From Clostridia bacterium (GTDB taxonomy: Bacteria; Bacillota; Clostridia; TANB77; CAG-465), in contig JAUNGP010000004.1 in the NCBI GenBank assembly GCA_030524345.1, forward strand, positions 1-64,000: a DNA stretch of 64,000 nucleotides, given 5' to 3'. Positions within the stretch are counted from its first letter, which is position 1. The number at the start of each line of letters is the position of its first letter. The notes below the pieces were generated by a model. That model had not been told where the DNA came from and ran no database searches. It saw only the letters and a program-made list of their open reading frames with translations. Shown here piece after piece: positions 3,912-17,935 of this stretch. A program made the position numbers and the translations under genes.

Positions 3912-5393
3912 TTATAATATAATACAAATCAGTCCACCACTTCCTTCATTAATAATTTTTTCTAAAGTCTCTTGTAATTTCATTTGTGCTTCATCAGGCA
4001 TTCTATATAGCTTGTTATGAAGCCCTTCGTTTACAAGTGAATGCAATGATTTGCCAAATATATTGGATTCCCAAATCTTAGTAGGATCAGTTTCAAATTC
4101 ACTAAGTAAATATTTTACTAAATCTTCTGATTGTTTTTCGCTTCCAACAATTGGAGATACCTCTGTTTCAATGTCAGCTCTAATCATATGAATACTTGGA
4201 GCACTAGCCTTTAATTTTACCCCATATTTATTACCTTGTTTTACAATCTCAGGTTCTTCTAACTTTAACTCATTAATCTGCGGTGTCACAATTCCGTATC
4301 CCTTGACTCTAACTTCTTCTAACGCCATTGCAATCTTATCATATTCTTGCTTTGTATTAGCAAAATCTTTAAGAAGTGAGAAAATATCTCCATCTGATTC
4401 AATATTAAAGTTTGACATCTCACTTAGAACTCGATAAAACATCTTAGGATTAATATTCATTCTAACTTGTATTCTTCCATCTTCCATCTGTGCCTTATCG
4501 ATATTAATATCTTCAAATATATCATTTTCTGTATTAACTTTTTCTATTACTTCATTAATTTCTCTAATAGAATAATCATTTTCAAAATTATCTTTTACAA
4601 TATTAATAATATTTTGTTTTAACCAATGATTCATATCTAATATACTAAACCACTCAGGAAGTTTAAATCCAATCTCTGTCACTGGGAATTCTTCTAAAAC
4701 TCGCTCAAAAATATGATTAATATCTTTTTCATTTACAGATGCAACATCTACTGGGATGACTGAAGCATTATATTTAGCACTCAATTCACTTGCAAGGCTT
4801 CTAGTCTCATCGGCATCAGGATGAACAGAATTTAATACTACTACAAATGGTTTATTAATATCCTTTAATTCATTGATAACCCTAGTTTCTGCATCTATAT
4901 AACTTTCTCTTGGAATATCTGTAATACTACCATCCGTAGTAATAACAAGACCTATCGTAGAATGATCTGTGATTACCTTTTTTGTCCCAATTTCAGCAGC
5001 ACGTGAAAAAGGTATTTCCTCCTCAGACCAAGGAGTCCTAACCATTCTTGGCATATCATTTTCCATATGCCCTACTGCTCCATCTACTAAATAGCCAACA
5101 CAATCTACTAGTCTTGTCTTAAACTTTACATTAGATCCTAATGTTATTTCAACAGATTCATTTGGCACAAACTTAGGCTCAGTGGTCATAATCGTTTTTC
5201 CAGCCGCGCTTTGAGGTAGTTCATCCTTTGCCCTATCTTTTTTATAGTCATTATCAATATTTGGTATCACAAGCTTTTCCATAAAGTTTTTTATAAATGT
5301 AGATTTACCACTTCTTACAGGTCCTACCACTCCAATATATATATCCCCATTTGTTCTTGACGATATATCTTTATAAATATCTAAATCTTTCAT
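3912..5393 (-). CDS. spoIVA: Stage IV sporulation protein A (spore coat basement ATPase)
   Basis: SpoIVA is the ATPase that polymerises on the forespore surface and anchors the spore coat; in Bacillus subtilis it is recruited by SpoVM. The 493 residues match the usual length of about 492. The P-loop is at about 24-32 (GPVRSGKST), in the family-specific context that follows IGVV. The downstream region has the TRLVDCVGY switch (D-x-x-G) and a GTPase-like fold that reads VVVLNSVHP. The C-terminus ends in a short hydrophobic stretch (GGLICIIL), the region that contacts SpoVM in Bacillus. GGAGGT precedes the ATG. Expression from a sporulation sigma factor (SigE) is expected; a weak candidate lies in 5400-5480 but I cannot assign it firmly. 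A SpoVM-like ORF is in this window at 22032-22100. Confidence 0.97.
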   Translation of the reverse strand: MKDLDIYKDISSRTNGDIYIGVVGPVRSGKSTFIKNFMEKLVIPNIDNDYKKDRAKDELPQSAAGKTIMTTEPKFVPNESVEITLGSNVKFKTRLVDCVGYLVDGAVGHMENDMPRMVRTPWSEEEIPFSRAAEIGTKKVITDHSTIGLVITTDGSITDIPRESYIDAETRVINELKDINKPFVVVLNSVHPDADETRSLASELSAKYNASVIPVDVASVNEKDINHIFERVLEEFPVTEIGFKLPEWFSILDMNHWLKQNIINIVKDNFENDYSIREINEVIEKVNTENDIFEDINIDKAQMEDGRIQVRMNINPKMFYRVLSEMSNFNIESDGDIFSLLKDFANTKQEYDKIAMALEEVRVKGYGIVTPQINELKLEEPEIVKQGNKYGVKLKASAPSIHMIRADIETEVSPIVGSEKQSEDLVKYLLSEFETDPTKIWESNIFGKSLHSLVNEGLHNKLYRMPDEAQMKLQETLEKIINEGSGGLICIIL

Positions 5394-5497
5394 TTTTTAC
5401 CTCCAGTTAATATCTTTAATACAAATATATTAATATCAATTCCTTAATATGATAAAAAAGTAACAATTTAAAGATTTATTCATATCATATATATAGT

Positions 5498-5535
5498 AAA
5501 AGTGACAAAATATAAATATATATTTTGCCACTTTT
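5498..5535 (-). terminator. Terminator of the DUF1385-like gene
   Basis: A 17-nt arm pair (5498-5514 with 5519-5535) with one wobble position lies immediately after the stop at 5539. Confidence 0.7.
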
Positions 5536-5538
5536 TAT

Positions 5539-6162
5539 TCATTTCATAATTTCATCTAGTTTTAACAAAGCTTCTCTTGCAAGCATTAGATTAGAATCAT
5601 CCGGAATATTGGTAGAAAATAATTGTATCGGTAACGAGATAATTTTTACAATTTTTAAGTTATAGATTGCCATTCTTAAACTAAAATAAGGTATTCCAAA
5701 CTTAAAAATGATGAGAATAATCACACATATCAAATTAATAATATATTTCCGATCCCCGCAATTTAAAGCAAATCTTGAAAAGTACTTTGCCTCTTCAATT
5801 GTTGGTACACGTTTTAACTTGTTATATGCATTGATCATCATATGCTCTGCCCCATGATTTCTAAAACTTGTTCTACTCATATGATACAGGTGATAGAATG
5901 AATAAATACATTTTAGAATAACTAATATATACGCTATATTTGAAATAACCCTACATTTACTGATAACTATCATCTCTATAATAAAGCTCAGCAAAACAAA
6001 AAGTTTATTAATTATTTTCCAATAAACTTCATCGTATCCGTTGATATCCTCAACACTGACAGATATATTTCCAGATATGTCATTTTTAGCAGTCACACAT
6101 TTATCACCACTGGAAAATGCAATGCTCCACTTTGTTGATGCTCCCTCAAGATTTTTAATCAT
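5539..6162 (-). CDS. Divergent DUF1385 (YqhQ-like) membrane protein
   Basis: The core carries NHGAEHMMINAY followed about 20 residues later by an S-R-x-x-x-x-C-G segment. These match the conserved HGAEHK-x-I-x-x-Y and SR..RCG blocks of DUF1385/YqhQ, a family of unknown role. Hydrophobic helices flank the motif on both sides. At about 207 residues it is shorter than typical YqhQ (about 300). A longer reading begins at GTG 6213, but a consensus promoter has its -10 box at 6214-6219, so that GTG precedes the expected transcription start. ATG 6162 has GGGGA 5 nt upstream and is preferred. The gene is a solo unit with its own promoter and terminator. Family assignment is by motif only. Confidence 0.6.
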   Translation of the reverse strand: MIKNLEGASTKWSIAFSSGDKCVTAKNDISGNISVSVEDINGYDEVYWKIINKLFVLLSFIIEMIVISKCRVISNIAYILVILKCIYSFYHLYHMSRTSFRNHGAEHMMINAYNKLKRVPTIEEAKYFSRFALNCGDRKYIINLICVIILIIFKFGIPYFSLRMAIYNLKIVKIISLPIQLFSTNIPDDSNLMLAREALLKLDEIMK

Positions 6163-6213
6163 ATTATTCCCCATTTCTAAAATTTTTGAAATACCAGCAT
6201 TTTCTCCAACCAC

Positions 6214-6242
6214 ATTATATCACTGATACTTTATTATGTCAA
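6214..6242 (-). promoter_or_regulatory. SigA-type promoter of the DUF1385-like gene
   Basis: TTGACA at 6237-6242, a 17-bp spacer and TATAAT at 6214-6219 with an extended TGA. It overlaps the T-run of the upstream gene's terminator. Confidence 0.8.
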
Positions 6243-6248
6243 AAAAGA

Positions 6249-6272
6249 TACCCAGGAAAAATTCCCTGGGTA
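6249..6272 (-). terminator. Terminator of the zinc-ribbon gene
   Basis: An 8-bp GC-rich stem (6249-6256 with 6265-6272) is followed on the minus strand by TCTTTTTT. Confidence 0.85.
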
Positions 6273-6293
6273 CCTTCTAACAGTACATTAATT

Positions 6294-6653
6294 TTACTCC
6301 TTTTCGATCTTCACGCCGCATTCAGGACAATATCTGTCCTCAGCAGGAATGGCGTTTTTACAAGCCGGGCACTTTTTCAAGCCCTGTTTAGCCAGAAGCT
6401 GGCACTCGCAGTCCTCTTTGAAAGCTTCTAATTCTTTCACTCTTTCTGCCTGTTCGGCAAAGAAACCGGAACCAAGTTCCAATGCTTTCTTTCCCGCTTC
6501 CAGATAAATCTCCTGAATTTCTGCTTCCGCTACCTGCATCTGTTCTTTCAAAGCTACAGTATTTGCCAGATCATCGGCTTTTGCATTAATGCTATCAAGA
6601 CCTCTCTGCACTCCACCTGTTGCCTTTTTTACCAGTTCTTCAAATCTTGCCAT
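6294..6653 (-). CDS. Coiled-coil protein with C-terminal zinc ribbon
   Basis: The 119-residue protein begins with an amphipathic helical region (about 1-85, rich in Ala, Glu, Lys). It ends in a zinc ribbon with two CxxC knuckles (CPACKNAIPAEDRYCPECG, about 95-113), a fold usually involved in protein or nucleic-acid contacts. Its bases are visibly richer in G and C (codons such as GCC, CGC, CTG) than the neighbours, suggesting recent transfer. It has its own promoter (6704-6732), AGGAGGA site and terminator. It lies directly downstream of the kinase operon on the same strand. telA (15467-16684), at the other end of the region, has similar base usage. No specific function can be named. Confidence 0.75.
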   Translation of the reverse strand: MARFEELVKKATGGVQRGLDSINAKADDLANTVALKEQMQVAEAEIQEIYLEAGKKALELGSGFFAEQAERVKELEAFKEDCECQLLAKQGLKKCPACKNAIPAEDRYCPECGVKIEKE

Positions 6654-6703
6654 AATTTTATTCCTCCTATATTAATATTTGGGTTTCATGTTACTTGACA
6701 TAT

Positions 6704-6732
6704 ATTATACACCAAAAAGTCTCTTTTGTAAA
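6704..6732 (-). promoter_or_regulatory. SigA-type promoter of the zinc-ribbon gene
   Basis: TTTACA at 6727-6732, a 17-bp spacer and TATAAT at 6704-6709. It sits between the end of the kinase gene and the zinc-ribbon start. Confidence 0.8.
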
Positions 6733-6735
6733 GTA

Positions 6736-9700
6736 TTATTTTATCTTTACATATTCGTAAACCCTATCATCATTGAAAATATAAAATCCTTTCTTTTTGA
6801 TGACAATACAAGATTTACTTTCGATAACATTGCATTCAATATACTTTTCCTTGGATTTTTTTGTATTGATAATATAAATGCCTCCATCCTCTGGAATATA
6901 TATATTGCCATTTTCAAACTTGACTTTTCTGATATTACATCCTACAACTCTCCTATCCTCAAACTGAATATGTTTTCCATTATTTCTAATGACAACACAC
7001 ACTCCTTCTGTATTGATAACTAACCATTCATTTCTTACTTTATCATATAGTACGCTATATTCTACATCAGAGTCAGATCTAGGAATAGAAAGATATCGAA
7101 TGTCATTGCAGAAGATATAGTCTTCATGATCACCTTCCTTTACAATCACAAATTTTTCGTTATTTAGAACAAAGAAACTCTTGGTATACATCTGAGTTTG
7201 GAACTTAATAACAGTTTTTTTGGTAAGTACTCCGCCAGCAAACTCTGCCTTGATAATAACATTTTCATAGTCTATGACACTTGCAAAATACAAAGTATGA
7301 CCATTGATAGCCACTTTTGGGGCCATGTTAAGATTGCTTTTAAAGATCTCTTCATCGTTACTTAAAGATATCATACAAATAGATCTTTCAAATACTATCA
7401 AAGCCATTTCCTTACTCTCAGAGAGAATAATGTCGATTACCTTTTCGTCTCCTAAGATACCAAACTTGTGAATTTCCTTATTCACACAAATGTTAACAGT
7501 CTGATTACCATTCTCATCTATAGAAATATAACTAATAGAGTTGATAATCTTGTTGAAGTTTTCTTCAAAAACAACAATTTCTCTTGTAACTGTTTTAGAA
7601 GTTGAGAAAGTATCTGTAAAACTACTTAGATCAGCACAACCAACATACTTAGAAGATGCAATACTATTGTAATAATTCTTCAAGTAAGGAGTTATGTTTA
7701 CTCTCTCATCACCTTCAAAAATACTCAAAAATGTCTCTTCAATCTCTCCTTTCATCCATTCCCAGGATCTTGCCAAAGAAGGTGGCTTTATACCGTGTTT
7801 TCCAAGTAACGATATTCTAAGTTCCATCTTCTCATCGATGTCTAAGTTTCGCTTTTTATCCTTATCATAGTAAATGCCTTCGAAAGGATGTGTCAATGTA
7901 AGATAATAAAATGCCTGTATGGCAAATGAATACCAATCATCCTTCATTGAAATAGTTTGGTTGTTTTTAGCAATAGGATCGACATAACCATCCGTAAAAA
8001 ATAGAGGCGCTATATCATCAATTCCCATTCCATCAAAGTCAAGGAAATATATGGTCTTGTTTTCATCAAACAAAATATTGCGACCATTTAAGTCTCCTAT
8101 ATACATATTTGCTTTTTTATGAAGATACTCAATTCCTTCACCTGCTGTTATGAGAATCTCTAAAATATCCTGTATTTCCAAACCGAGTTTTTGTACTAGT
8201 GCTTCATCCCTTAGTGTAGAGATTGAGACTCCTTTTACTTCATTTAAGATATAGCCTCTTACACTATTGGTTTCGCTATCAATGATAAACTTTTGAGGAG
8301 TGACAAAAACAAACTTAGAGTTTTCTGTATTTAATCTTTCTAAGATATCTCTTCTCTCCAGTATCTTTATAATGATAGCAACCTTCATCTCAATATTTAC
8401 TTCATCCAATTTGAAGATTTTAGCAAATACGCCATCCTCATATTCATAGATGTATGATTCACCACCCTCATTTTTAGGCTTTCGTTCTTTCATCCATTGA
8501 TCAACTGGAAAAGAAATCGAATTTTCCTGTAAAACACTTGGATTAAAATTAGGGACACATTTTGGACATAACAAATACTTTTTATGGTAATAAATATCAT
8601 GTACAGGACAGTATTTTGTCATATTTCTTGCAAGTTCCTTAATTTGGTCAATCAAATCTGCCAAAGAGATTGCATTAATATCCTCAGTGTCAATTTCATT
8701 TGAGATGATAGAATGAATATAATTTACAATAAAAGTTTCACTAAAGTTACATATCTCTTGACCTCCATCTTGATTAAAGTTTAAAAAATCTACATTTACA
8801 ATCTGTATCATTTTCTTATGAGACGGATTAAATAGTGCCTTTCCAAATGGATTATGAGAAAAGAAAAACCTTGCATATTCCAAATGTAATACCTGAGTAC
8901 CTAGTGTGATAAGTGCTTTAAGCTTTTTTAAATTTTTGAAATCTTTATCAAGATCTAAGCACTCAGAAAAATCTACTTTCTCATACACGTATCCTATAAA
9001 CTTTCTGCTAGAAGCAATCACTGCTTTTTTATACGGCAAGAACATATCCTGACCTAAGTTAGGTCGATTCTTCAAATAAGAATCAATATTTTGCTCTTGC
9101 TCTCTTATATCTATTTTATCCTCTTTATACACCTTTAAGTTTTTATCAACTGTTAAGGCATAATGTATCGCATACTCGTCTTCAAATATTATCTTGCCAA
9201 ATTTCCCTTTATACTTTTCAACATCATATATGGTTCTTTGACAAATAGGACACAATCCATCGCTAGAAGGATAATACACATTATGTGCATCACAAAAAGC
9301 ATCCATAGACTCATATAGCATATTAAGGCTACGACGGCTAGAAAAATTAATATTCCTAACAATATCGTCCTCAAGCCCATTGATAGGGACTATTCTAGAT
9401 AAGAGATCTTCTGCAAAATTCCTTCCAGATGTTTTATTTACTGTAATATTGTCCAGCATATTAATATAGAAGTGGAAGTCCTTATCCATCCTAATGCTAC
9501 AAAAGCCAATATACCTTTTGTTAAATCTAACAAACAAGTTTGCTGCAATTTTAATAAAATCTTTATTACTAATTTTTGAAAAATCCAGTTCTGACAGCAG
9601 TTCCCCCTTTATTGGATCACTAACATACCCTATCATATAATAGGTATCGTCATTAGAAATCTTTTTAGAATAAATAATGGTATGAAGACCTATTTTATGA

Positions 9701-11421
9701 ATAATATCGCTGTCATCATAACTAAAGAACTGAGAATATTTCTCTTCGTTGCTATCCACCACCTTTGCAAAATTCTTAAGCTCTCGCTTACCTTTAAACA
9801 GGCAAATTACTCTACCGTCATCTAAAACATGCTCTGTACCATAACTTACTTCTATGCCAAAAAGATCTTTTACCTGCTCTTCAAATATATATTCTGTCTT
9901 TAAAGGATCATAAATAAACTTACTATAATAAATATACAGCTCTTTCTTATTTTTTCCTTGTTGATAATTACTTGGAAAGTCCTGAAAAAAGCTATAATAT
10001 ACAGATCCCATATCTACTTTTTGACCAAGTATAAAATGACAAAGTTCTAAAGTAAATTTAGGAGGCAAGATCTTTATTTCAAACAGCTCATAAAGAGCAT
10101 CCAATGTCATAGACTCCAAACCATTATATTGGGAAGCAAGATAATTGGAGTAAAGTTTTAAAGCAAAATTCCCAAGTTGATTTTTTAATACTTCAGTTGG
10201 ACAGCTAAGCCCTCTTATAAAGCTCTCATCATCAGTAAAGTACATAGTTGTCATACTATTCATACTATAAGATACATCATTTTCAATATCAAAAGTATTA
10301 TCACCTGATGATTTGCTAAAGCCAGAAGGAATAGAACTGACAAACCTTTTTAAATTCCATAGCCATGTAACTAAACCAGATAAGTCCTCTCTCTTACCTT
10401 CTTTGATCGGTAAAAGTTTACAAAAACTTGTTTCACAGTATTCATACCCAATAAAGTTACAATCAAAATCAAAGAGCATTCCTGTAATCTTAAACTTGAC
10501 AAAACGTGAGAGTTCGTAGATATCATAAAGAAACCGAATATTTTCATACACTGTTTGATCTGGCGTTGTGTATAGTTTATACTGCGTTTCATTTTCCTCA
10601 CCATAAACAATATATGACTCTGTTTCTTTCAATACCTTCTGTCCCTTTTGGAAGTCTTCAAGAGATGGAATCAATTTCATGTTATATTCATGATAATATT
10701 CTTTGTACTCCTCATCGGCTTTTTCTGATTTCAGGACTTCTAAGACATCCTTCTCAAGCTTATTATTCTGATAAAATTGATAGAACATCCTAAGCATATC
10801 AAAGGAGAAGCTTACATTTTTCATTTCAAAAGAAAAATTCTTTCTAATTGTATTGTAAAGATCTTCTAAAGAACCTCCATAAACTTTATGACAAATAAAA
10901 TCTAACAAAAGTCCTGTATTGACAATAGTGGCATTTTCGCCTTCACCCTCATCAAACCAAAAGAGTAATTCAAAAAAACTACAATAGCTATTCAAATTAC
11001 AAAACTCTTCTGCCAGGACAAAATTCATCTCATTCATTTTACCTACAAAAGTTGTAAATTCAATTAACTTTTCTAGGTCAGATAAGTGAGCATCAGGATT
11101 CTTTTTTGACATATACATATGAAAGGCCAAAAGTTTATTTTCTTTTCTATCTATTACAATTTTTCTGATACTGATATTGTAATATTCAAGACTAATTTCT
11201 CCAACATCTTTTAATCCCTTGATCATATGGAAAAGCCGCTTTGATAAAGTTTCATCTTTGATCACATACACAAGTTCTACCAGTTCTCTATCATCACATA
11301 AATATATATCATACTCATATTCACAAATGGAATGTTCGTAGACACTTTCAATCCAGAAGTTCCAAAAAATTGGTAACTTTTTAGCATACATTTCCTTCTT
11401 AAAAGGATTATATATAGTCAT
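6736..11421 (-). CDS. Giant multidomain Ser/Thr-type protein kinase with zinc knuckles and C-terminal propeller-like region
   Basis: Of 1561 residues, the recognisable kinase occupies about 975-1250. It has a glycine-rich GGESYIYEYEDG near 985, Lys in FAKIFK, catalytic YIGDLNGRNILF near 1109 (Asp and Asn kept, HRD altered) and DFDGMG near 1128 replacing DFG. Upstream are two cysteine knuckle pairs: CPIC near 724, and CPVH with CPKC near 938-952. Several earlier stretches repeat kinase-like patterns without catalytic residues (about 260-370, 540-700, 745-900), for example HNPFGKALF followed by IVNVDF, suggesting tandem pseudokinases. Residues from about 1300 form repeated beta strands, probably a WD40 or PQQ-type propeller. 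No membrane helix is seen. It is the last gene of the operon with phosphatase and vWA genes, so phosphorylation controlled by the PP2C partner is inferred. Confidence 0.8.
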   Translation of the reverse strand: MTIYNPFKKEMYAKKLPIFWNFWIESVYEHSICEYEYDIYLCDDRELVELVYVIKDETLSKRLFHMIKGLKDVGEISLEYYNISIRKIVIDRKENKLLAFHMYMSKKNPDAHLSDLEKLIEFTTFVGKMNEMNFVLAEEFCNLNSYCSFFELLFWFDEGEGENATIVNTGLLLDFICHKVYGGSLEDLYNTIRKNFSFEMKNVSFSFDMLRMFYQFYQNNKLEKDVLEVLKSEKADEEYKEYYHEYNMKLIPSLEDFQKGQKVLKETESYIVYGEENETQYKLYTTPDQTVYENIRFLYDIYELSRFVKFKITGMLFDFDCNFIGYEYCETSFCKLLPIKEGKREDLSGLVTWLWNLKRFVSSIPSGFSKSSGDNTFDIENDVSYSMNSMTTMYFTDDESFIRGLSCPTEVLKNQLGNFALKLYSNYLASQYNGLESMTLDALYELFEIKILPPKFTLELCHFILGQKVDMGSVYYSFFQDFPSNYQQGKNKKELYIYYSKFIYDPLKTEYIFEEQVKDLFGIEVSYGTEHVLDDGRVICLFKGKRELKNFAKVVDSNEEKYSQFFSYDDSDIIHKIGLHTIIYSKKISNDDTYYMIGYVSDPIKGELLSELDFSKISNKDFIKIAANLFVRFNKRYIGFCSIRMDKDFHFYINMLDNITVNKTSGRNFAEDLLSRIVPINGLEDDIVRNINFSSRRSLNMLYESMDAFCDAHNVYYPSSDGLCPICQRTIYDVEKYKGKFGKIIFEDEYAIHYALTVDKNLKVYKEDKIDIREQEQNIDSYLKNRPNLGQDMFLPYKKAVIASSRKFIGYVYEKVDFSECLDLDKDFKNLKKLKALITLGTQVLHLEYARFFFSHNPFGKALFNPSHKKMIQIVNVDFLNFNQDGGQEICNFSETFIVNYIHSIISNEIDTEDINAISLADLIDQIKELARNMTKYCPVHDIYYHKKYLLCPKCVPNFNPSVLQENSISFPVDQWMKERKPKNEGGESYIYEYEDGVFAKIFKLDEVNIEMKVAIIIKILERRDILERLNTENSKFVFVTPQKFIIDSETNSVRGYILNEVKGVSISTLRDEALVQKLGLEIQDILEILITAGEGIEYLHKKANMYIGDLNGRNILFDENKTIYFLDFDGMGIDDIAPLFFTDGYVDPIAKNNQTISMKDDWYSFAIQAFYYLTLTHPFEGIYYDKDKKRNLDIDEKMELRISLLGKHGIKPPSLARSWEWMKGEIEETFLSIFEGDERVNITPYLKNYYNSIASSKYVGCADLSSFTDTFSTSKTVTREIVVFEENFNKIINSISYISIDENGNQTVNICVNKEIHKFGILGDEKVIDIILSESKEMALIVFERSICMISLSNDEEIFKSNLNMAPKVAINGHTLYFASVIDYENVIIKAEFAGGVLTKKTVIKFQTQMYTKSFFVLNNEKFVIVKEGDHEDYIFCNDIRYLSIPRSDSDVEYSVLYDKVRNEWLVINTEGVCVVIRNNGKHIQFEDRRVVGCNIRKVKFENGNIYIPEDGGIYIINTKKSKEKYIECNVIESKSCIVIKKKGFYIFNDDRVYEYVKIK

Positions 11422-11447
11422 TACAACTACCTCCTGTATAATTTTTA

Positions 11448-11487
11448 AGAGGGATATTCAAAATAATCAATGTATGGATATCCCTCT
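11448..11487 (-). other. Intercistronic hairpin upstream of the kinase gene
   Basis: A 10-bp stem (11448-11457 with 11478-11487) with a 20-nt loop lies in the 84-bp gap between the TerY-like gene and the kinase gene. The arm is followed by A residues rather than T on the minus strand. It is therefore not a typical terminator and may instead set mRNA stability or relative expression. Confidence 0.5.
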
Positions 11488-11505
11488 CTTATTTAAAATA
11501 ATTTG

Positions 11506-12222
11506 CTATACTTCTTCAAACCAATCCTCATCATCCATTACCTGTGATGCCTTAGCTGAATATCCTGCAGACTGACTGTTTTTAGCTGCCTGGCTAAAGA
11601 ATTCAGCGCCTAAAGACTTCATACTTCTTGACTGCTCTTTGCAACTTCTAGAAAGTTCCTCCCCCATAAATGTGGTAAGAGCGGATCTATCGTTAATATC
11701 ACGCGTAGCAACAAATCCAAGTTTGCTACCAAACTGCGCTGTAATCGAACGTCCAAATGCTACAAAAACAGTTGTTACACCGTTCTTATTAAGTTTTGCA
11801 ATTGCCTTTTTGGCATTTTCTTCTGTATCTTTATCATACTCAGACATACCATCAGATAAAACAATAAATGTTGCTCTTGGGATACAATTATTTCTAAGGA
11901 TTACCTCTTGGATATACTCTAAAAGATCATTTGCTCCCTGTACAATAGAATGATAAAGGGCAGTTCCTCCACTAGGATAATAATCGGTTCTAAACTCGCT
12001 TATATTTCTAAAAGCGGATGGATAATAGTCATTATCAAATGTATTCAAAGCAACTGCTATTGAGTTTGCTTCAGAAAAGTTCTCAAAACTTTTCTTAAAG
12101 GATTCCAATCCATCAATCATATTTCGCCTATCATCTCTCATAGACCCGGAACTATCTGCATTAAATGAAAAGACATTAATTCTGGTCGTAGAAAATTTGT
12201 AAAGATTATTTTTCTGTAACAT
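11506..12222 (-). CDS. TerY-like von Willebrand factor A domain protein
   Basis: A cytoplasmic vWA domain fills most of the 238 residues. The metal-ion-dependent adhesion site is intact: DSSGS near 24-28 (DxSxS), Thr in PSGGTALY, and Asp in VLSDGMSEYD. Such domains bind a divalent cation and a protein partner. TerY-type vWA proteins occur beside PP2C phosphatases and kinases in tellurite/stress (Ter) loci, and here the same partners share the operon. The C-terminal 50 residues are Ser/Ala/Gln-rich and end in an acidic tail. No signal peptide is present. An AGGAGG site lies 8-10 nt before the ATG. It probably acts as a metal-responsive scaffold; that role is inference. Confidence 0.85.
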   Translation of the reverse strand: MLQKNNLYKFSTTRINVFSFNADSSGSMRDDRRNMIDGLESFKKSFENFSEANSIAVALNTFDNDYYPSAFRNISEFRTDYYPSGGTALYHSIVQGANDLLEYIQEVILRNNCIPRATFIVLSDGMSEYDKDTEENAKKAIAKLNKNGVTTVFVAFGRSITAQFGSKLGFVATRDINDRSALTTFMGEELSRSCKEQSRSMKSLGAEFFSQAAKNSQSAGYSAKASQVMDDEDWFEEV

Positions 12223-12234
12223 GTTTTTTTCCTC

Positions 12235-13803
12235 CTAGATTAACTCATTATAGTTTTTGATATCATTCAAACTCTTAAGTACATTTTCAAGTCCTTGAAA
12301 ATAAAAAGAGTTCAAATAAACATGGTTTTGAAAAATCATAAAGTCAAAATTTTTTTCTTTTAAAGCTCGTGTAATTTTTGCTATATCTTGCTCATCTAAA
12401 GAGAAGATTTTTACATAATTTTGACTCGCTCTACTGCACTTTAATAATTCACTTTTTCTTTTTTCTACTTCACTCTTAGGATAAAAAGAACTATATTTAT
12501 CCATTTGCTTTTTTATATTTTTGACAAAAGATCCTGAAATACCTCTACTAGAGTTTATTTCTTCCAGCAAATCAAATAAGAGCAAAATAAAATAAATCTC
12601 CTTATACGTTACCTCACTACTTAGATTGGAAAGAATCCTCAAAACTATTGCTACATTGATATCCTGCGTTTTATAAGATATTTCAGCAAGTGACAAACAA
12701 GACTGTGATTTTACAGATAAGAATATTTCATTCTCATCAATACCAGTATCAAATCTATCTAAAAGTATAATCTCAGTCCTATCTTTTGAGTATCCTAATA
12801 AAGTAAGACAGTGCAAAACGTCATCTTCAATTCCCATTACTTCCAGCCAAAATTCTTCACTATTCATAACTTTGTTTACAGATACATCATAGTTAAAATT
12901 CTGCAATTTTTGAATTCTTCTTAGGAACGAAAAATAGTACTCTTCTCCTTTTAAGAGTTCCAAAAGAGCTGTTAGATTTTCTAATTCTTCCAATACAAAA
13001 TCTTTGAAAATCTGTGTGTGATCTAAACCACGAAATTCTCTCTCAATAAAAAGAGTAGATAATACTTCCTTCATATTCAAATCTAAAGAATTTCGAACAA
13101 CACACTTAAAAATCAAATAATCTGCATAGGAAACAAAGTCAATCAAGTACTCTTTTTTATACTTATCAGAAGTAAAGAATCCATATGACTTAGTATCTTC
13201 AACAATATCTGCAATACTTTCTTTTGCGCGTTCTATTTGAGCTAAAAATTTCTGCTTTTCCTTATCTCCAGAATAACGAATCGAAGTGTTATACAATGTA
13301 CTAAGCTTTACACATATTTTCTGTATTCTTCTAGAGATCAGATAAAATTTCAAGTCGTTTTCTATGAAGGCATTGATTTCCTTTTCTAGTAACACTACTT
13401 CGTTTACCTTTTTGGAATCCTCATCTGGATCAATTTCAAAAGTAATTGTCTTATTTTTCAAACTATCCAAATATTCATTTAAACTAACCTGATATTCATC
13501 CTTTAAATTTTTAATTCGTTCTGCAAATTCAGCATAAGGCTTAGGAAAAATTTCATCAAAAGTTTTGATAAGCTGCTCCATAGAATATAACCTAGCAAGC
13601 ATGGATCGCTTAACGATTACTACATCATCATTTTCAAATTCTTCCTTTTCCTCTTCAGCTTTTTGGATAAGATCTCTCATTTCTTCTAATTCCTCATGAG
13701 ATAAATCGTCCTCTGTTTCATCAGCCGCAGTATCACTTAAAATTCCAATGATATAGCTCATGAAAGAGTTCCACTTACTTTTCATAATTTGTATCAGACT
13801 CAT
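12235..13803 (-). CDS. Coiled-coil protein of unknown function in the kinase operon
   Basis: I do not recognise a family. The 522 residues are almost entirely helical by pattern, rich in Leu, Glu, Lys and Ile, with an acidic segment near the N-terminus (about 25-60). A TTG start at 13824 is possible, but ATG 13803 has GGAG 7 nt upstream and is preferred. No transmembrane helix, Cys motif or nucleotide-binding motif is visible. It lies 17 nt after the degenerate vWA gene and 12 nt before the TerY-like gene, so it is co-translated with them. A role as a scaffold or kinase/phosphatase substrate is a guess from context. Confidence 0.7.
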   Translation of the reverse strand: MSLIQIMKSKWNSFMSYIIGILSDTAADETEDDLSHEELEEMRDLIQKAEEEKEEFENDDVVIVKRSMLARLYSMEQLIKTFDEIFPKPYAEFAERIKNLKDEYQVSLNEYLDSLKNKTITFEIDPDEDSKKVNEVVLLEKEINAFIENDLKFYLISRRIQKICVKLSTLYNTSIRYSGDKEKQKFLAQIERAKESIADIVEDTKSYGFFTSDKYKKEYLIDFVSYADYLIFKCVVRNSLDLNMKEVLSTLFIEREFRGLDHTQIFKDFVLEELENLTALLELLKGEEYYFSFLRRIQKLQNFNYDVSVNKVMNSEEFWLEVMGIEDDVLHCLTLLGYSKDRTEIILLDRFDTGIDENEIFLSVKSQSCLSLAEISYKTQDINVAIVLRILSNLSSEVTYKEIYFILLLFDLLEEINSSRGISGSFVKNIKKQMDKYSSFYPKSEVEKRKSELLKCSRASQNYVKIFSLDEQDIAKITRALKEKNFDFMIFQNHVYLNSFYFQGLENVLKSLNDIKNYNELI

Positions 13804-13820
13804 ATTTTTTCTCCATATAC

Positions 13821-14627
13821 TCAATATTCTTTACTCAATGAGCCAATAGATCGAAAGCCCATAGCTGCAGCCTTTGGCATTAAATTCTCATTAGTACAAA
13901 AGTACTTAGCTTTGACTTTTTTAGAAAGTAACTCATTAAATAAAGTTCCTGCCTCCTCATAAGTTGTTGTAGAAGCATTATCACTACAAGTACCTATTCC
14001 GATAATTTCAAAATGTTCTATTTGAAAACGATTAATGCTATCTTCTGTGATCTTTCTATCATGACTTGCGATTACTTCATTCAAAGTGCCGATAGCATCA
14101 AAAAAGCAAACTTTATCATTTGAACTATCTGATTTTACATCAGTCTGTTTACTAGTGCTTGAACTCTCACCATATCGAATAATACAGTAACAATTGTCCT
14201 TAATCGCACCATTAATAATTCTTGCGATACGACTAGCATATTCGTTCATCGATGTACTTTCCTCAAGTAGCACGATAACCATAGTCTTATGAATAAGAGG
14301 TTTATATCGAAATCTTTCCTCTTTTTCACGAGCAAAAGGCTTAGTCTTGACGACTTTAGAAGTTTCTTCATCAGCAGCTTTTTGAGCTTCCTCAATTTGC
14401 TTCTGACCTTCCAACATTAGCTCTCTAAAATATGGATCAGAAATTTCCGGAGTAGTATCTACTTGAACTTTCTGATTCACTCTGGGGCAAGTCTCAAGTT
14501 TTACTTCTTCACTTTCCTTTTGGATCACTTCCTTTTTACTCTCAGGAACTATAGTGGGAACCACTAAATCTTTCTTATCTGTATTTTTTCCAAAAATGTT
14601 ACCTAAAAATGCTCTCTTTTTCTTCAT
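13821..14627 (-). CDS. Degenerate vWA-like protein of the kinase operon
   Basis: The first 110 residues are charged and low in complexity (Lys, Glu, Val, Pro), likely unstructured. From about 115 the sequence reads like a vWA fold: a hydrophobic strand MVIVLLEESTSM with E-x-S-x-S in place of the canonical DxSxS, then a central strand with GIGTCSD and a final FRSIGSLS. The metal site therefore looks altered. The gene sits between the phosphatase and the coiled-coil gene with 15- and 17-nt gaps. Having an intact and a degenerate vWA protein in one operon suggests a paired platform. Family assignment is by pattern only. Confidence 0.6.
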   Translation of the reverse strand: MKKKRAFLGNIFGKNTDKKDLVVPTIVPESKKEVIQKESEEVKLETCPRVNQKVQVDTTPEISDPYFRELMLEGQKQIEEAQKAADEETSKVVKTKPFAREKEERFRYKPLIHKTMVIVLLEESTSMNEYASRIARIINGAIKDNCYCIIRYGESSSTSKQTDVKSDSSNDKVCFFDAIGTLNEVIASHDRKITEDSINRFQIEHFEIIGIGTCSDNASTTTYEEAGTLFNELLSKKVKAKYFCTNENLMPKAAAMGFRSIGSLSKEY

Positions 14628-14642
14628 GACAAATATCCTCCC

Positions 14643-15323
14643 TTAAATCAGAATTGTTATATCATCTTTGAACAAATGGTTATTAGCAAGAATAATTCCC
14701 TCAGCGCCATATTCAGATTCCACTTTCGATACAATCAAAGTATCAAAATCAGTCTTAATATCACCTTTAGCAATAGGTTGAATACCATCTGATGCCACTC
14801 CAACCTTTTGGAATTCCTTCTTACTGAAAGTGAAAGTTTTGAAGTGATAATCTTTAAAAATATTATCCTCTAAAAGCTCACAATATTTGTATGCAAAATA
14901 CGGAGGCCTTTTTCCATAGAAGAATTTTAAATAGCTCACTTTGTCATTTTTATTCACAGTGACAATATATCCGTCTCCGAACATCTTGACAATAAATGAA
15001 TCCTCCATTTCAAAGCAAGCAACAATGGTAAAAAGTAAATTATCCATGATAAACTCTTCCACTGCCTCTTTGGTTGTAAACCACTTCTTAAACATTTCCA
15101 AAAGTTCATCAAATGTTTTCTTAACATTTTCCTCAAAGCACTCCACTTTTGCTCTATCCGGAAGTGTAGAAAACACCTGTATAAAGAGTCTTGTACCTAC
15201 TTCTGAATACTGCGCTTCACTACATCCATCAAGAACCATTTTTAAGTTTTGGTCTAAGTAACAAAAATCCTGATTGTTCATGCCATTAGTATAATGGGCA
15301 CATCCTTGTCTAGTAATTTTCAT
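14643..15323 (-). CDS. PP2C-family protein phosphatase
   Basis: This compact 226-residue protein carries the ordered PP2C metal-site motifs: NQDF near 17-20, VLDGCSEA near 30-37, MFGDG in the middle, ASDGI, and DDITILI at the C-terminus. PP2C enzymes remove phosphate from Ser/Thr using two Mn or Mg ions. It is about 20-30 residues shorter than stand-alone bacterial PP2Cs, as is common in operonic forms. It is the first gene of the five-gene operon. The promoter is at 15378-15406 and the RBS AGGAGAT. The operon also encodes a kinase, so the two probably act on the same targets; this is inferred. Confidence 0.82.
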   Translation of the reverse strand: MKITRQGCAHYTNGMNNQDFCYLDQNLKMVLDGCSEAQYSEVGTRLFIQVFSTLPDRAKVECFEENVKKTFDELLEMFKKWFTTKEAVEEFIMDNLLFTIVACFEMEDSFIVKMFGDGYIVTVNKNDKVSYLKFFYGKRPPYFAYKYCELLEDNIFKDYHFKTFTFSKKEFQKVGVASDGIQPIAKGDIKTDFDTLIVSKVESEYGAEGIILANNHLFKDDITILI

Positions 15324-15377
15324 AAAAATATCTCCTTTTCTTTTATTAAAAATAAAATATAATATAAAACCGATAAT

Positions 15378-15406
15378 ATTATATCATATTTTTTAAATTA
15401 TGTAAA
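15378..15406 (-). promoter_or_regulatory. SigA-type promoter of the phosphatase-vWA-kinase operon
   Basis: TTTACA at 15401-15406, a 17-bp spacer and TATAAT at 15378-15383 with an extended TGA. It lies between the telA terminator and the phosphatase start. Confidence 0.8.
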
Positions 15407-15433
15407 GTAAAATAGCATAATTATATACAAAAA

Positions 15434-15459
15434 GAGACACGCTTTTTAAAGCGTGCCTC
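15434..15459 (-). terminator. Terminator of telA
   Basis: A 12-bp stem with one wobble (15434-15445 with 15448-15459) is followed on the minus strand by CTTTTTG. It separates telA from the kinase operon. Confidence 0.85.
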
Positions 15460-15466
15460 CCATTTC

Positions 15467-16684
15467 TTAAAATTCTAATGAGCCGTTTCCATTATAAGTT
15501 GTAGTTTGTGTTGAAGCGCTACTTCCCGCCCCCTGCTGTTTTACCTTATAAATATACGGTTCAAGCTCTTCAACCAGCCGATTGACTTCATCCAGATCTG
15601 CCCGTAACTTCGGAACCATTTCGGTATGCACTTTTTCGATCTCTTTACATCCATCGATAACTGTTAAAATGGCCTCTTTTGCTGCAGACATCCCATAGAA
15701 ACCAGCATAGATTAACTTTTCTGTTTCCTCTGCTGTCAATTTAGCATTCTGAGAAACTTTTTTCATCAGCTCATCATTTAATCTAATGATGGCCTGCTGT
15801 CCTTCTAAGACCTCGCGATTTTTTGCATCCAAAACCGCATTTCTAAGCTGCTGCGAAATCAAAGCCATGCTGTTATTCTTCTGGGTATGGATTGTGATTT
15901 GCATGTTACGATTACCACGTTCTGTCAGTGCCAGCTGTCCAATACTCAATTTGTACATTGCTCTTGATTTTTCCAAATTCGTAAGAACAATCTGGAATAC
16001 CTCATAACCATCTTTGATAGCATCATATTCCTGCTGATCCTTCTGCAGACCGCTTGCTTCATATGCAGCTTTCTTTTCATCTAAAAGCTTACTAATGCGT
16101 TCAGAAGCAAGATATCCTGCAACCAGATATTTTTCAAGCAGTTCAATTGTCATTCTATCATCAACACTGGAACTTGTAATCTGATACATAGCCGTCTTTA
16201 ACATCTCAATCCAAGAATCACAGGATTCCTTGAGCTGCTTTAAGAGCTTATAGTTGGTAACCGCACTCTCTCGAATCCTTTGATTTCTCTTTTTCTTCCT
16301 TCCAGTAGAGATTTTAAGCAAAATCCTCTCCAGGAAGTTTGGTTCTTTCAGAACCAAATTAAAGTCATCATAGCTTTTATTTGCTATGTTAGAGAGTTCA
16401 ATTACTTCTCTAATGACTCTCTGATCGGCTTCAGATCCCTGTTCTTCCTTTAACAGGTTTCCGCACTGTTCAAAGGTAGAAATCAGCGGTGAAGATCCAT
16501 AAGACATAATTTTATCGATCTCAGTAACATCGATCCGCGCTGCAAGCTCTGTAATGGCGTGCTGATCTTCGGGTGAATAAGATGCCAAAGCAGCCTGATA
16601 ATTCAGTGGCTGAATATTGGCCTTTGCCTCTACTTTTGGTCCAAGCTGAAAATTCTCTTTTAACATTAATTCTTCGTTATTCAT
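15467..16684 (-). CDS. telA: TelA/YceH-family toxic anion resistance protein
   Basis: TelA-family proteins are linked to tellurite and other envelope or chemical stress; their biochemical role is unknown. The 405 residues are helical and about the family length. The middle carries LEKYLVAGYLASERI, and the C-terminal half has the typical QLALTERGNRNMQITIHTQ region followed by NSMALISQQLRNAVLDAKN, matching the TelA core. The last 20 residues are Ser/Thr/Gln/Gly-rich. It has its own promoter and terminator, so it is a separate unit upstream of the kinase operon. Its base usage is richer in G and C than the operon, closer to the zinc-ribbon gene. The neighbourhood supports a Ter-type stress role. 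Confidence 0.87.
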   Translation of the reverse strand: MNNEELMLKENFQLGPKVEAKANIQPLNYQAALASYSPEDQHAITELAARIDVTEIDKIMSYGSSPLISTFEQCGNLLKEEQGSEADQRVIREVIELSNIANKSYDDFNLVLKEPNFLERILLKISTGRKKKRNQRIRESAVTNYKLLKQLKESCDSWIEMLKTAMYQITSSSVDDRMTIELLEKYLVAGYLASERISKLLDEKKAAYEASGLQKDQQEYDAIKDGYEVFQIVLTNLEKSRAMYKLSIGQLALTERGNRNMQITIHTQKNNSMALISQQLRNAVLDAKNREVLEGQQAIIRLNDELMKKVSQNAKLTAEETEKLIYAGFYGMSAAKEAILTVIDGCKEIEKVHTEMVPKLRADLDEVNRLVEELEPYIYKVKQQGAGSSASTQTTTYNGNGSLEF

Positions 16685-16736
16685 TTTTTTCCTCCTACAA
16701 ATTTATTAAAATTGGAATTAGAATTAATACGCAAAT

Positions 16737-16765
16737 ATTATATCATTACATTTGGCAAAAGTCAA
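16737..16765 (-). promoter_or_regulatory. SigA-type promoter of telA
   Basis: TTGACT at 16760-16765, a 17-bp spacer and TATAAT at 16737-16742 with an extended TGA. Confidence 0.85.
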
Positions 16766-16848
16766 CACATTATGTAATTTTAGCTTCTTAATTATCCTAT
16801 ATTTTAAATATTTTTAAATTATAAATAGACCTTTCTATTACAATGTTC

Positions 16849-16877
16849 TTTATTTTTATGTAAATTTATGATATAAT
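16849..16877 (+). promoter_or_regulatory. Promoter of the 285-residue gene, divergent from telA
   Basis: TATAAT at 16872-16877 with an extended TGA. The -35 is weak (TTTATT at 16849-16854, 17-bp spacer). Confidence 0.6.
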
Positions 16878-16912
16878 ATTATTATCACAAATTTAAAGGA
16901 GGAGTTGTTAAT

Positions 16913-17770
16913 ATGACTCAAAAAGAAATTGAAGAACTATTTCAACAAAATTTTTCACATCGGGATCTTGAACAACTTTTAAATCCCAATCACACGATTT
17001 CACAGATGTCTCAGGGTGATAAAATCATCATCAACGATGAACTCTTGGATTATTTAAGAGACTTTTTTGATGAACAATATCAAGGAAAAAAGATTCCTAA
17101 AGTGTTTGATAAGGTGCTTATTGAACTTAGAAATAACCCCTCTGGACTTATTCGCATCTTTATAGAATTTCCGGAGGATAAAGAAAACTTTGTCTATCTT
17201 GATGTCTTTTTGAATTGGACCTTTATTGTAAAATTCATATTTGTAAATGTTGAAGCTACTGATAAAGATCCAGTCACTGGCAGATATATTACCTTTATGG
17301 CTCCCGTTTTTAGAGGCCCCTTTATTTACGGCGATTTATCCAATTTTGTAAAAAATATTTTTGGATATGCTTATCTTTTTGTAGCTGCCAATAAAGAAGA
17401 AAAGTCCGTATATACAGAAGAAGTTCGCAAAAATAACACTCAGACACAAACAAAAGCCAAAAAGCCTAAGAAACAAGGAAAAAAGAAAAACTATTCCCCC
17501 TTAGAACGAGAAAGAGTCTATATCCCTAAAACAAGACGAGTTTATTCAATCACAAAAATCACGCCAAGAGTTGAAGAAAATATTCGTAATTACATCTTGG
17601 CAGAATGGCCCGTTAAAGGATATACCTACACCAGAAGAAAGAGTAAAAATTCTGATGAATTGATTGAGGTAAGTGTTCCCCCAAGAGTTTCTAAAAGACG
17701 CCATCCCAATGCCGGTGTAAAAAAGGATGTTCAAGGAAAGGATTTTATCCTTACCCAACCTAAAGACTAA
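16913..17770 (+). CDS. Unknown protein with basic linker, divergent from telA
   Basis: I do not recognise the family. The N-terminal 165 residues look like a mixed alpha/beta domain with aromatic strands. A strongly basic linker (about 175-195, mostly Lys, Pro, Gln) follows. The C-terminal 90 residues are also basic, with many Arg, Lys, Tyr and Pro, suggesting contact with nucleic acid or another anionic surface. No membrane segment or Cys motif is seen. The site AAAGGAGG precedes the ATG. It shares a 228-bp divergent promoter region with telA, which hints at joint regulation, and ends in a strong terminator. Its base usage resembles the AT-rich background more than telA does. Confidence 0.7.
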   Translation: MTQKEIEELFQQNFSHRDLEQLLNPNHTISQMSQGDKIIINDELLDYLRDFFDEQYQGKKIPKVFDKVLIELRNNPSGLIRIFIEFPEDKENFVYLDVFLNWTFIVKFIFVNVEATDKDPVTGRYITFMAPVFRGPFIYGDLSNFVKNIFGYAYLFVAANKEEKSVYTEEVRKNNTQTQTKAKKPKKQGKKKNYSPLERERVYIPKTRRVYSITKITPRVEENIRNYILAEWPVKGYTYTRRKSKNSDELIEVSVPPRVSKRRHPNAGVKKDVQGKDFILTQPKD

Positions 17771-17777
17771 CGATATG

Positions 17778-17819
17778 CACATCATAATATTCAATGTAAT
17801 ATTATGATGTGTATTTTTT
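17778..17819 (+). terminator. Terminator of the 285-residue gene
   Basis: A perfect 14-bp stem (17778-17791 with 17798-17811) is followed by TATTTTTT. Confidence 0.9.
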
Positions 17820-17906
17820 CTCCCTCCTTACTTAGTAGCAAATATTTATATACTTTCATATTATGTATTGTAAGATTTATTTTTTTACTTTTTTAGACTA
17901 AATTTG

Positions 17907-17935
17907 TTGACTTTTTAGCACTTTAAATGTATACT
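17907..17935 (+). promoter_or_regulatory. Promoter of pyk
   Basis: TTGACT at 17907-17912, a 17-bp spacer and TATACT at 17930-17935. It overlaps the upstream in-frame ATG at 17927, ruling out that start. Confidence 0.8.

Follow-up and report, generated by a model that had tools for sequence, protein, structure and literature searches.

The window, i.e., the whole stretch of 64,000 nucleotides of Clostridia DNA analyzed here, carries five ORFs on the minus strand, in the 5′ to 3′ order PP2C, VWA1 (degenerate vWA), CC, VWA2 (intact vWA), and KIN (kinase). Together with the elements preceding them, these are:

6736–11421, minus strand: KIN, a giant kinase, 1561 aa (ORF, model, and profiles)
11506–12222, minus strand: VWA2, an intact vWA protein, 238 aa (VWA, PF00092, 20.4 bits; alignment)
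12235–13824, minus strand: CC, a helical protein and the marker gene of the system, 529 aa (ORF; AlphaFold2 model)
13821–14627, minus strand: VWA1, a degenerate vWA protein, 268 aa (alignment and profile comparison)
14643–15323, minus strand: PP2C-family phosphatase, 226 aa (PF13672, PP2C_2, 39.5 bits against a cut-off of 24; alignment)
15378–15406, minus strand: promoter-like site TTTACA-17-TATAAT with an extended −10 (11 of 12 consensus positions; consensus match only)
15432–15461, minus strand: terminator-like hairpin between TelA and PP2C (13-pair stem, then a T-run)
15467–16684, minus strand: TelA-family protein of a divergent subfamily, 405 aa (PF05816, 65 bits)

The ORFs are exactly as an earlier sequence-only reading of this DNA had described them, with short intergenic gaps (PP2C-VWA1, 15; VWA1-CC, −4; CC-VWA2, 12; and VWA2-KIN, 84 bases), and the promoter that it had placed ahead of PP2C was recovered as the consensus match listed above. 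That reading left out the TelA gene directly upstream of the five, which has a promoter-like site of its own (16765–16737) and scores far below the typical TelA copies of the same genomes (~370–400 bits with PF05816). TelA lies upstream of the operon in 25 of the loci clustered, and several complete loci are without it. In 21 of 22 TelA-PP2C spacers a hairpin precedes a T-run and outscores every one, or almost every one, of 60 dinucleotide shuffles; TelA therefore adjoins the five-gene unit without being its first gene. The five genes lie close together as one unit, with a predicted promoter of their own ahead of them and a putative terminator parting them from TelA. On the other side, downstream of KIN, a gene for a 119-aa zinc-ribbon protein (6294–6653) has its own promoter-like site at 6732–6704, and its homologs adjoin the operon in two of the loci collected (L015 and L024).

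Alignment of the PP2C protein showed the metal-binding Asp motifs to be present. The pairing of an intact with a degenerate vWA protein, which had been proposed from the sequence, is borne out: VWA2, though its Pfam VWA score falls below the curated cut-off of 23.8 bits, keeps the DxSxS MIDAS motif, and VWA1, with no VWA match in the Pfam domain scan, is homologous to VWA2 in a profile comparison (79%, E 1.6e-5) while lacking DxSxS in every relative aligned and having a variable N-terminus. VWA1 thus does belong to the vWA proteins, in a degenerate form. The supposed coiled-coil member CC, which starts with TTG (an in-frame ATG follows 7 codons further on), is predicted to be all-helical with a small α/β C-terminus (AlphaFold2 model mf87dce7377bd, pLDDT 77.7). 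Its comparison with the PDB gave no convincing fold match, the best being a designed cage at E 0.017; we rejected translin-like and vinculin-like assignments, as such PDB rows lie within the noise for helical models. No effector domain was recognized among the operon products, and searches with PADLOC and NCBIfam returned no system-level match, just weak kinase matches such as mad6 and PD-T4-6.

Of 57 relatives searched with CC, 12 carry it, and in each of these where the contig is long enough the same genes lie beside it, so that the co-location on which the proposed operon depends holds. With a CC profile, 23 of the 287 genomes examined in the order gave a match; among 391 sampled genomes of the class its matches were confined to this order, and among 398 sampled genomes of the phylum it found only the window's own genome plus one marginal match of 18.6 bits. 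A kinase-based search of named genomes yielded 27 loci, all in metagenome-assembled genomes of uncultured Clostridia, several with titles that point to animal gut samples. Once duplicate contigs had been removed, the order PP2C-VWA1-CC-VWA2-KIN is seen in 31 of 33 distinct loci, so the arrangement is not a product of chance; median gaps across loci are −1, 15, 14, and 75 bases. This count includes L019, where VWA1 is broken; L078 and L079, where tblastn located VWA2; L025, which has one vWA gene more; and L082 and L083, where the contig stops within KIN. The two exceptions are L022, itself cut by a contig end, and the rearranged L087 (314–5460), which reads TelA-VWA1-CC-PP2C-VWA2 on a contig that stops before the kinase. 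We rejected two apparent gene losses: the vWA genes "missing" from L078 and L079 were an artifact of ORF picking, and the giant kinase without CC in the genome G008 is accounted for by a contig end. Some loci vary in other ways. In L022, L025, and L151 a third vWA gene lies between CC and the kinase, which there measures 1688–1707 aa, and in L019 (6616–9058) frameshifts break TelA and VWA1 while the kinase stays open, reflecting either decay or an assembly error.

A kinase from a well-known single family with another fixed role would have told against the proposal, but KIN matches no such family in Pfam, PADLOC, or NCBIfam. Its great size, 1561 aa, is real; what the sequence-only reading missed is the internal array of pseudokinase and zinc-ribbon units. 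The Pfam Pkinase profile, run on the single sequence, found only the C-terminal kinase, at 30.5 bits (aa 1073–1195), just below the cut-off of 31.7. An AlphaFold2 model of aa 1–1200, built from 23 sequences, has a mean pLDDT of 80.2 with a pTM of 0.44, so that its domain folds are fair and their arrangement is uncertain; it contains successive units, each with the strand-strand-helix-strand order of kinase N-lobes. We compared profiles of these units using the secondary structure of the model, with 20 reversed-template controls that all scored 1.8% or less. The following parts were delineated in KIN:

10672–11325, minus strand: unit A, aa 33–250 (kinase-like secondary structure in the model only)
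9922–10659, minus strand: unit B, aa 255–500, probable pseudokinase (B-D profile 61%, E 2.4e-4)
9307–9864, minus strand: unit C, aa 520–705, pseudokinase (C-D 98.5%, E 1e-12; C-K 63%)
9226–9306, minus strand: zinc ribbon 1, C710, H713, C724, C727 (ligands kept in 28–30 of 30)
8617–9225, minus strand: unit D, aa 733–935, pseudokinase (D-K profile 93%, E 7.8e-6)
8542–8616, minus strand: zinc ribbon 2, C938, H941, C952, C955 (ligands invariant, 30 of 30)
7642–8499, minus strand: kinase domain K, aa 975–1260 (K1001, D1110, N1115, D1128; GGE)
6739–7638, minus strand: C-terminal β-rich domain P, aa 1262–1561 (common to the simple triad kinase)

In unit D the catalytic Asp is replaced by Asn 857 (22 of 30) and the Asp of DFG by Asn 876 (24 of 30), while the β3 Lys 763 is kept (25 of 30); the two Asn residues were placed by manual alignment because the profile match between D and K extends over just the N-lobe. 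Domain K has its catalytic residues invariant or nearly so, whereas unit D has lost its own in most rows, and K is, going by these residues, a catalytically competent-looking Ser/Thr-type kinase; aa 961–1200 give a VIA-align Z of ~15 against protein kinases. It runs straight into the β-rich tail with no CxxH..CxxC between, and the tail, domain P, has weak matches to BamB propellers in a PDB profile search (E 0.13–1), making it propeller-like by sequence only. When unit B, C, or D or the tail was searched against PDB profiles, nothing significant emerged, the units retrieving no kinase, and unit A found no support in the profile comparison. Foldseek ranked a JAK chain first for the 1–1200 model, in an alignment whose 603 columns exceed any single kinase domain; at a TM-score of 0.13, this match is at most suggestive of tandem kinase domains. 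Thus, two pseudokinase plus zinc-ribbon units (C and D) precede the active domain K, probably with two further pseudokinases (A and B) ahead of them, A being a candidate drawn from the model, and it is this array that explains the size of KIN. Between pairs of relatives the kinase C-lobe is best conserved (~80% against 50–60% in the array), which may hint at a constant output coupled to a variable input.

The window's genome also encodes a simpler version of the system (contig C37, L026:10805–15092), comprising a conserved 337-aa protein without a Pfam match, a vWA protein, a PP2C phosphatase, and a 596-aa kinase. The latter consists of a kinase domain, a CxxH..CPxC ribbon, and a β-rich tail, the ribbon and tail matching those of the giant KIN; zinc ribbon 2 in particular is homologous to this ribbon. 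Searched against its own genome, the unit D profile retrieved two ribbons, one from unit C and one from the simple kinase (both at E 6e-7 to 9e-7), and among 299 genomes of the phylum it retrieved nothing beyond these. The presence of a vWA-PP2C-(kinase-ribbon-tail) module in the same genome suggests that KIN arose from a TerY-P-type kinase by tandem expansion. An economical reading of its origin is that the kinase-ribbon unit was duplicated in tandem, that the N-terminal copies would have lost catalysis, and that the last would have lost its ribbon. Four genomes of the genus have the simple module (the window's own, G000, along with G008, L148; G024, L149; and G010, L150), and simple and expanded modules coexist in all four, which makes them suited to studying how an array may have grown out of one kinase-ribbon unit.

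The expanded unit is patchily distributed, being found in 8 of 28 genomes of the genus with the window's included, and between these carriers CC is 21–37% identical as against 72–82% for SpoIVA. In the window, ~12 kb including the operon (5394–17926) lie between spoIVA (3912–5393) and the pyruvate kinase gene pyk (17927); these two genes are adjacent in a genome of the same genus (G013, L125), and elsewhere in the genus the gap is filled by other genes. The SpoIVA neighborhood of the operon is not conserved in other carriers, the flanks being ordinary chromosomal genes such as those for SecA and an AMP-binding enzyme. Beside the operons we saw no known defense gene and no mobile-element signature, and a search of plasmids and viral contigs found no copy. 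In a tree of four of the proteins the copies of family f3 form one clade (100/100) inside the diverse copies of family f1. Transfer between these families is thus unsupported, and the patchiness may instead be due to loss, early duplication, or transfer within f1.

A TerY-P triad comprises a TerY-like vWA protein, a PP2C phosphatase, and a Ser/Thr kinase with a C-terminal zinc ribbon or OB-fold, and reportedly goes back to work by Anantharaman and colleagues in 2012. Reversible phosphorylation by PP2C and kinase families is established, and the pseudokinase domains of JAKs gate the neighboring kinase. The explanation that we favor, tentatively and at a little under an even chance, is that the operon specifies a TerY-P-type phosphorylation switch in enlarged form, with an array that senses something and gates the kinase, a PP2C that opposes it, and defense as the most likely purpose. 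The signal bound by the pseudokinase/ribbon array would be nucleic acid, metal, or an intruder protein, and by analogy with JAK pseudokinases the array would hold or release the active domain K. PP2C would keep the output off and reset it, while VWA1, VWA2, and CC might form a scaffold joining kinase, phosphatase, and substrates. Once activated, K would phosphorylate cell targets, perhaps CC, VWA1, or TelA, and this could arrest growth or harden the cell. We lean to this account because the gene order is fixed in 31 loci with short gaps and the residues of K are conserved while unit D has lost its own; because units B, C, D, and K are related by profile with negative reversed controls and a JAK chain is the top match over 603 columns; because the ribbon ligands are invariant and the ribbons homologous, with the simple module supplying the unexpanded form; and because the unit is patchy (8 of 28), its CC far more divergent than SpoIVA, and its window copy part of a ~12-kb spoIVA-pyk insert. 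Moreover, TerY-P triads, some of them stand-alone, are reported antiphage systems, as is the kinase-phosphatase module KKP (PMC7699616, PMC10889362, PMC11341870). Defense against phage or another invader is thus a plausible role and our leading guess. Against it stand the ordinary chromosomal flanks, the want of a plasmid or viral copy, of an effector domain, and of a known fold for CC, the derivation of unit A from model secondary structure and of array gating from analogy, and the fact that patchiness and divergence fit other accessory functions too.

One such alternative, unlikely on balance but a real contender, is a TelA-linked stress responder, in which the switch would sense metal or envelope damage and control TelA with no role against phage. 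The TelA adjacent in 25 loci does come from another subfamily than the typical copies in those genomes, metal sensing by the zinc ribbons is conceivable, and TerY-P was originally proposed as a metal-sensing switch (PMC11090510); yet several complete loci have no TelA, and where it is present the conserved terminator-like hairpin separates it from the five genes. TerD also argues against this reading, occurring in just one (the window's genome) of the 12 CC carriers among the 57 relatives; overall, it is found in two of the 57 (G000 and G008), 11 of the 12 carriers being without it, and the Pfam scan recovered no TerD gene in the locus itself. Hence, while the sequence-only reading rightly saw TerY-P-like phospho-signaling with extra parts, the tie to Ter loci that it drew is weak here. 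The window's genome does have a separate Ter-type locus (G000:C35:8857–13153), with five TerD matches and a TelA.

We consider it improbable that the operon is a signaling cassette of normal physiology, e.g., for sporulation or surface control, lost in many lineages: its chromosomal location beside ordinary genes, its place next to spoIVA in the window, and the single f3 clade, whose inheritance looks largely vertical, would suit such a role, but the operon is absent from most genomes of the genus, diverges far more than SpoIVA, and does not keep the SpoIVA neighborhood in other carriers. Least probable is that the N-terminus of KIN is a scaffold of unrelated origin, so that KIN would be a TerY-P kinase of the usual kind bearing a large extension, since the failure of single-sequence Pfam and of the PDB searches to find kinases there is countered by the profile relationships of C-D, D-K, C-K, and B-D (98.5, 93, 63, and 61% as against at most 1.8% in the 20 reversed controls), the recurrent strand-strand-helix-strand order of the modeled units, and the homology of the ribbons.

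Set against known systems, the enlarged phosphorylation switch that we favor is an expanded relative of TerY-P: the operon encodes a MIDAS-bearing vWA protein, a PP2C phosphatase, and a Ser/Thr-type kinase together, and KIN is homologous to the ribbon-bearing kinase of the simple module in the same genome. However, there are five core genes rather than three, with the MIDAS-less vWA protein and CC as additions, and in KIN a pseudokinase-ribbon array comes before the active kinase while no ribbon comes after it. As the ribbons of KIN follow units C and D, and the active kinase is without the C-terminal ribbon that the simple module has, the operon is not a strict TerY-P member. The CoCoNuT systems likewise combine TerY-P components and coiled-coil proteins within a larger operon, which in its extended forms includes two vWA genes (PMC11090510), but differ in that a Pfam scan of our locus genes found no McrB GTPase, helicase, or HEPN nuclease. 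The five-gene system is undescribed in the literature searched.

KKP, whose phosphatase holds the kinase in check until it is itself blocked by a phage protein, shares with the operon a kinase opposed by a phosphatase, and offers a model for how such a switch could give phage defense (PMC11341870). It differs in that its two active kinases are separate, one bearing an FHA and the other a cold-shock domain, that prophages are its main carriers, and that no vWA protein is reported for it; in our operon there is one catalytically complete kinase domain, and the Pfam scan found no FHA or cold-shock domain. Finally, JAKs, with JH2 beside JH1, and plant tandem kinase-pseudokinase immune proteins (PMC6170490) place a pseudokinase beside a kinase in one chain as KIN does, where pseudokinase D comes directly before active K. 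This is a resemblance of layout only, as these proteins are eukaryotic and without zinc ribbons between units, and the homology shown with KIN is that of the kinase fold. A bolder reading, which we regard as unlikely, is that the operon is a bacterial immune sensor of the JAK and plant tandem-kinase kind, in which the array would detect an invader and allosterically free one kinase within a dedicated multi-protein complex of one order of gut Clostridia. If the array does gate the kinase, this would be a bacterial system whose several pseudokinases regulate the kinase of their own chain, a layout for which JAKs and plant immunity proteins are the known examples.
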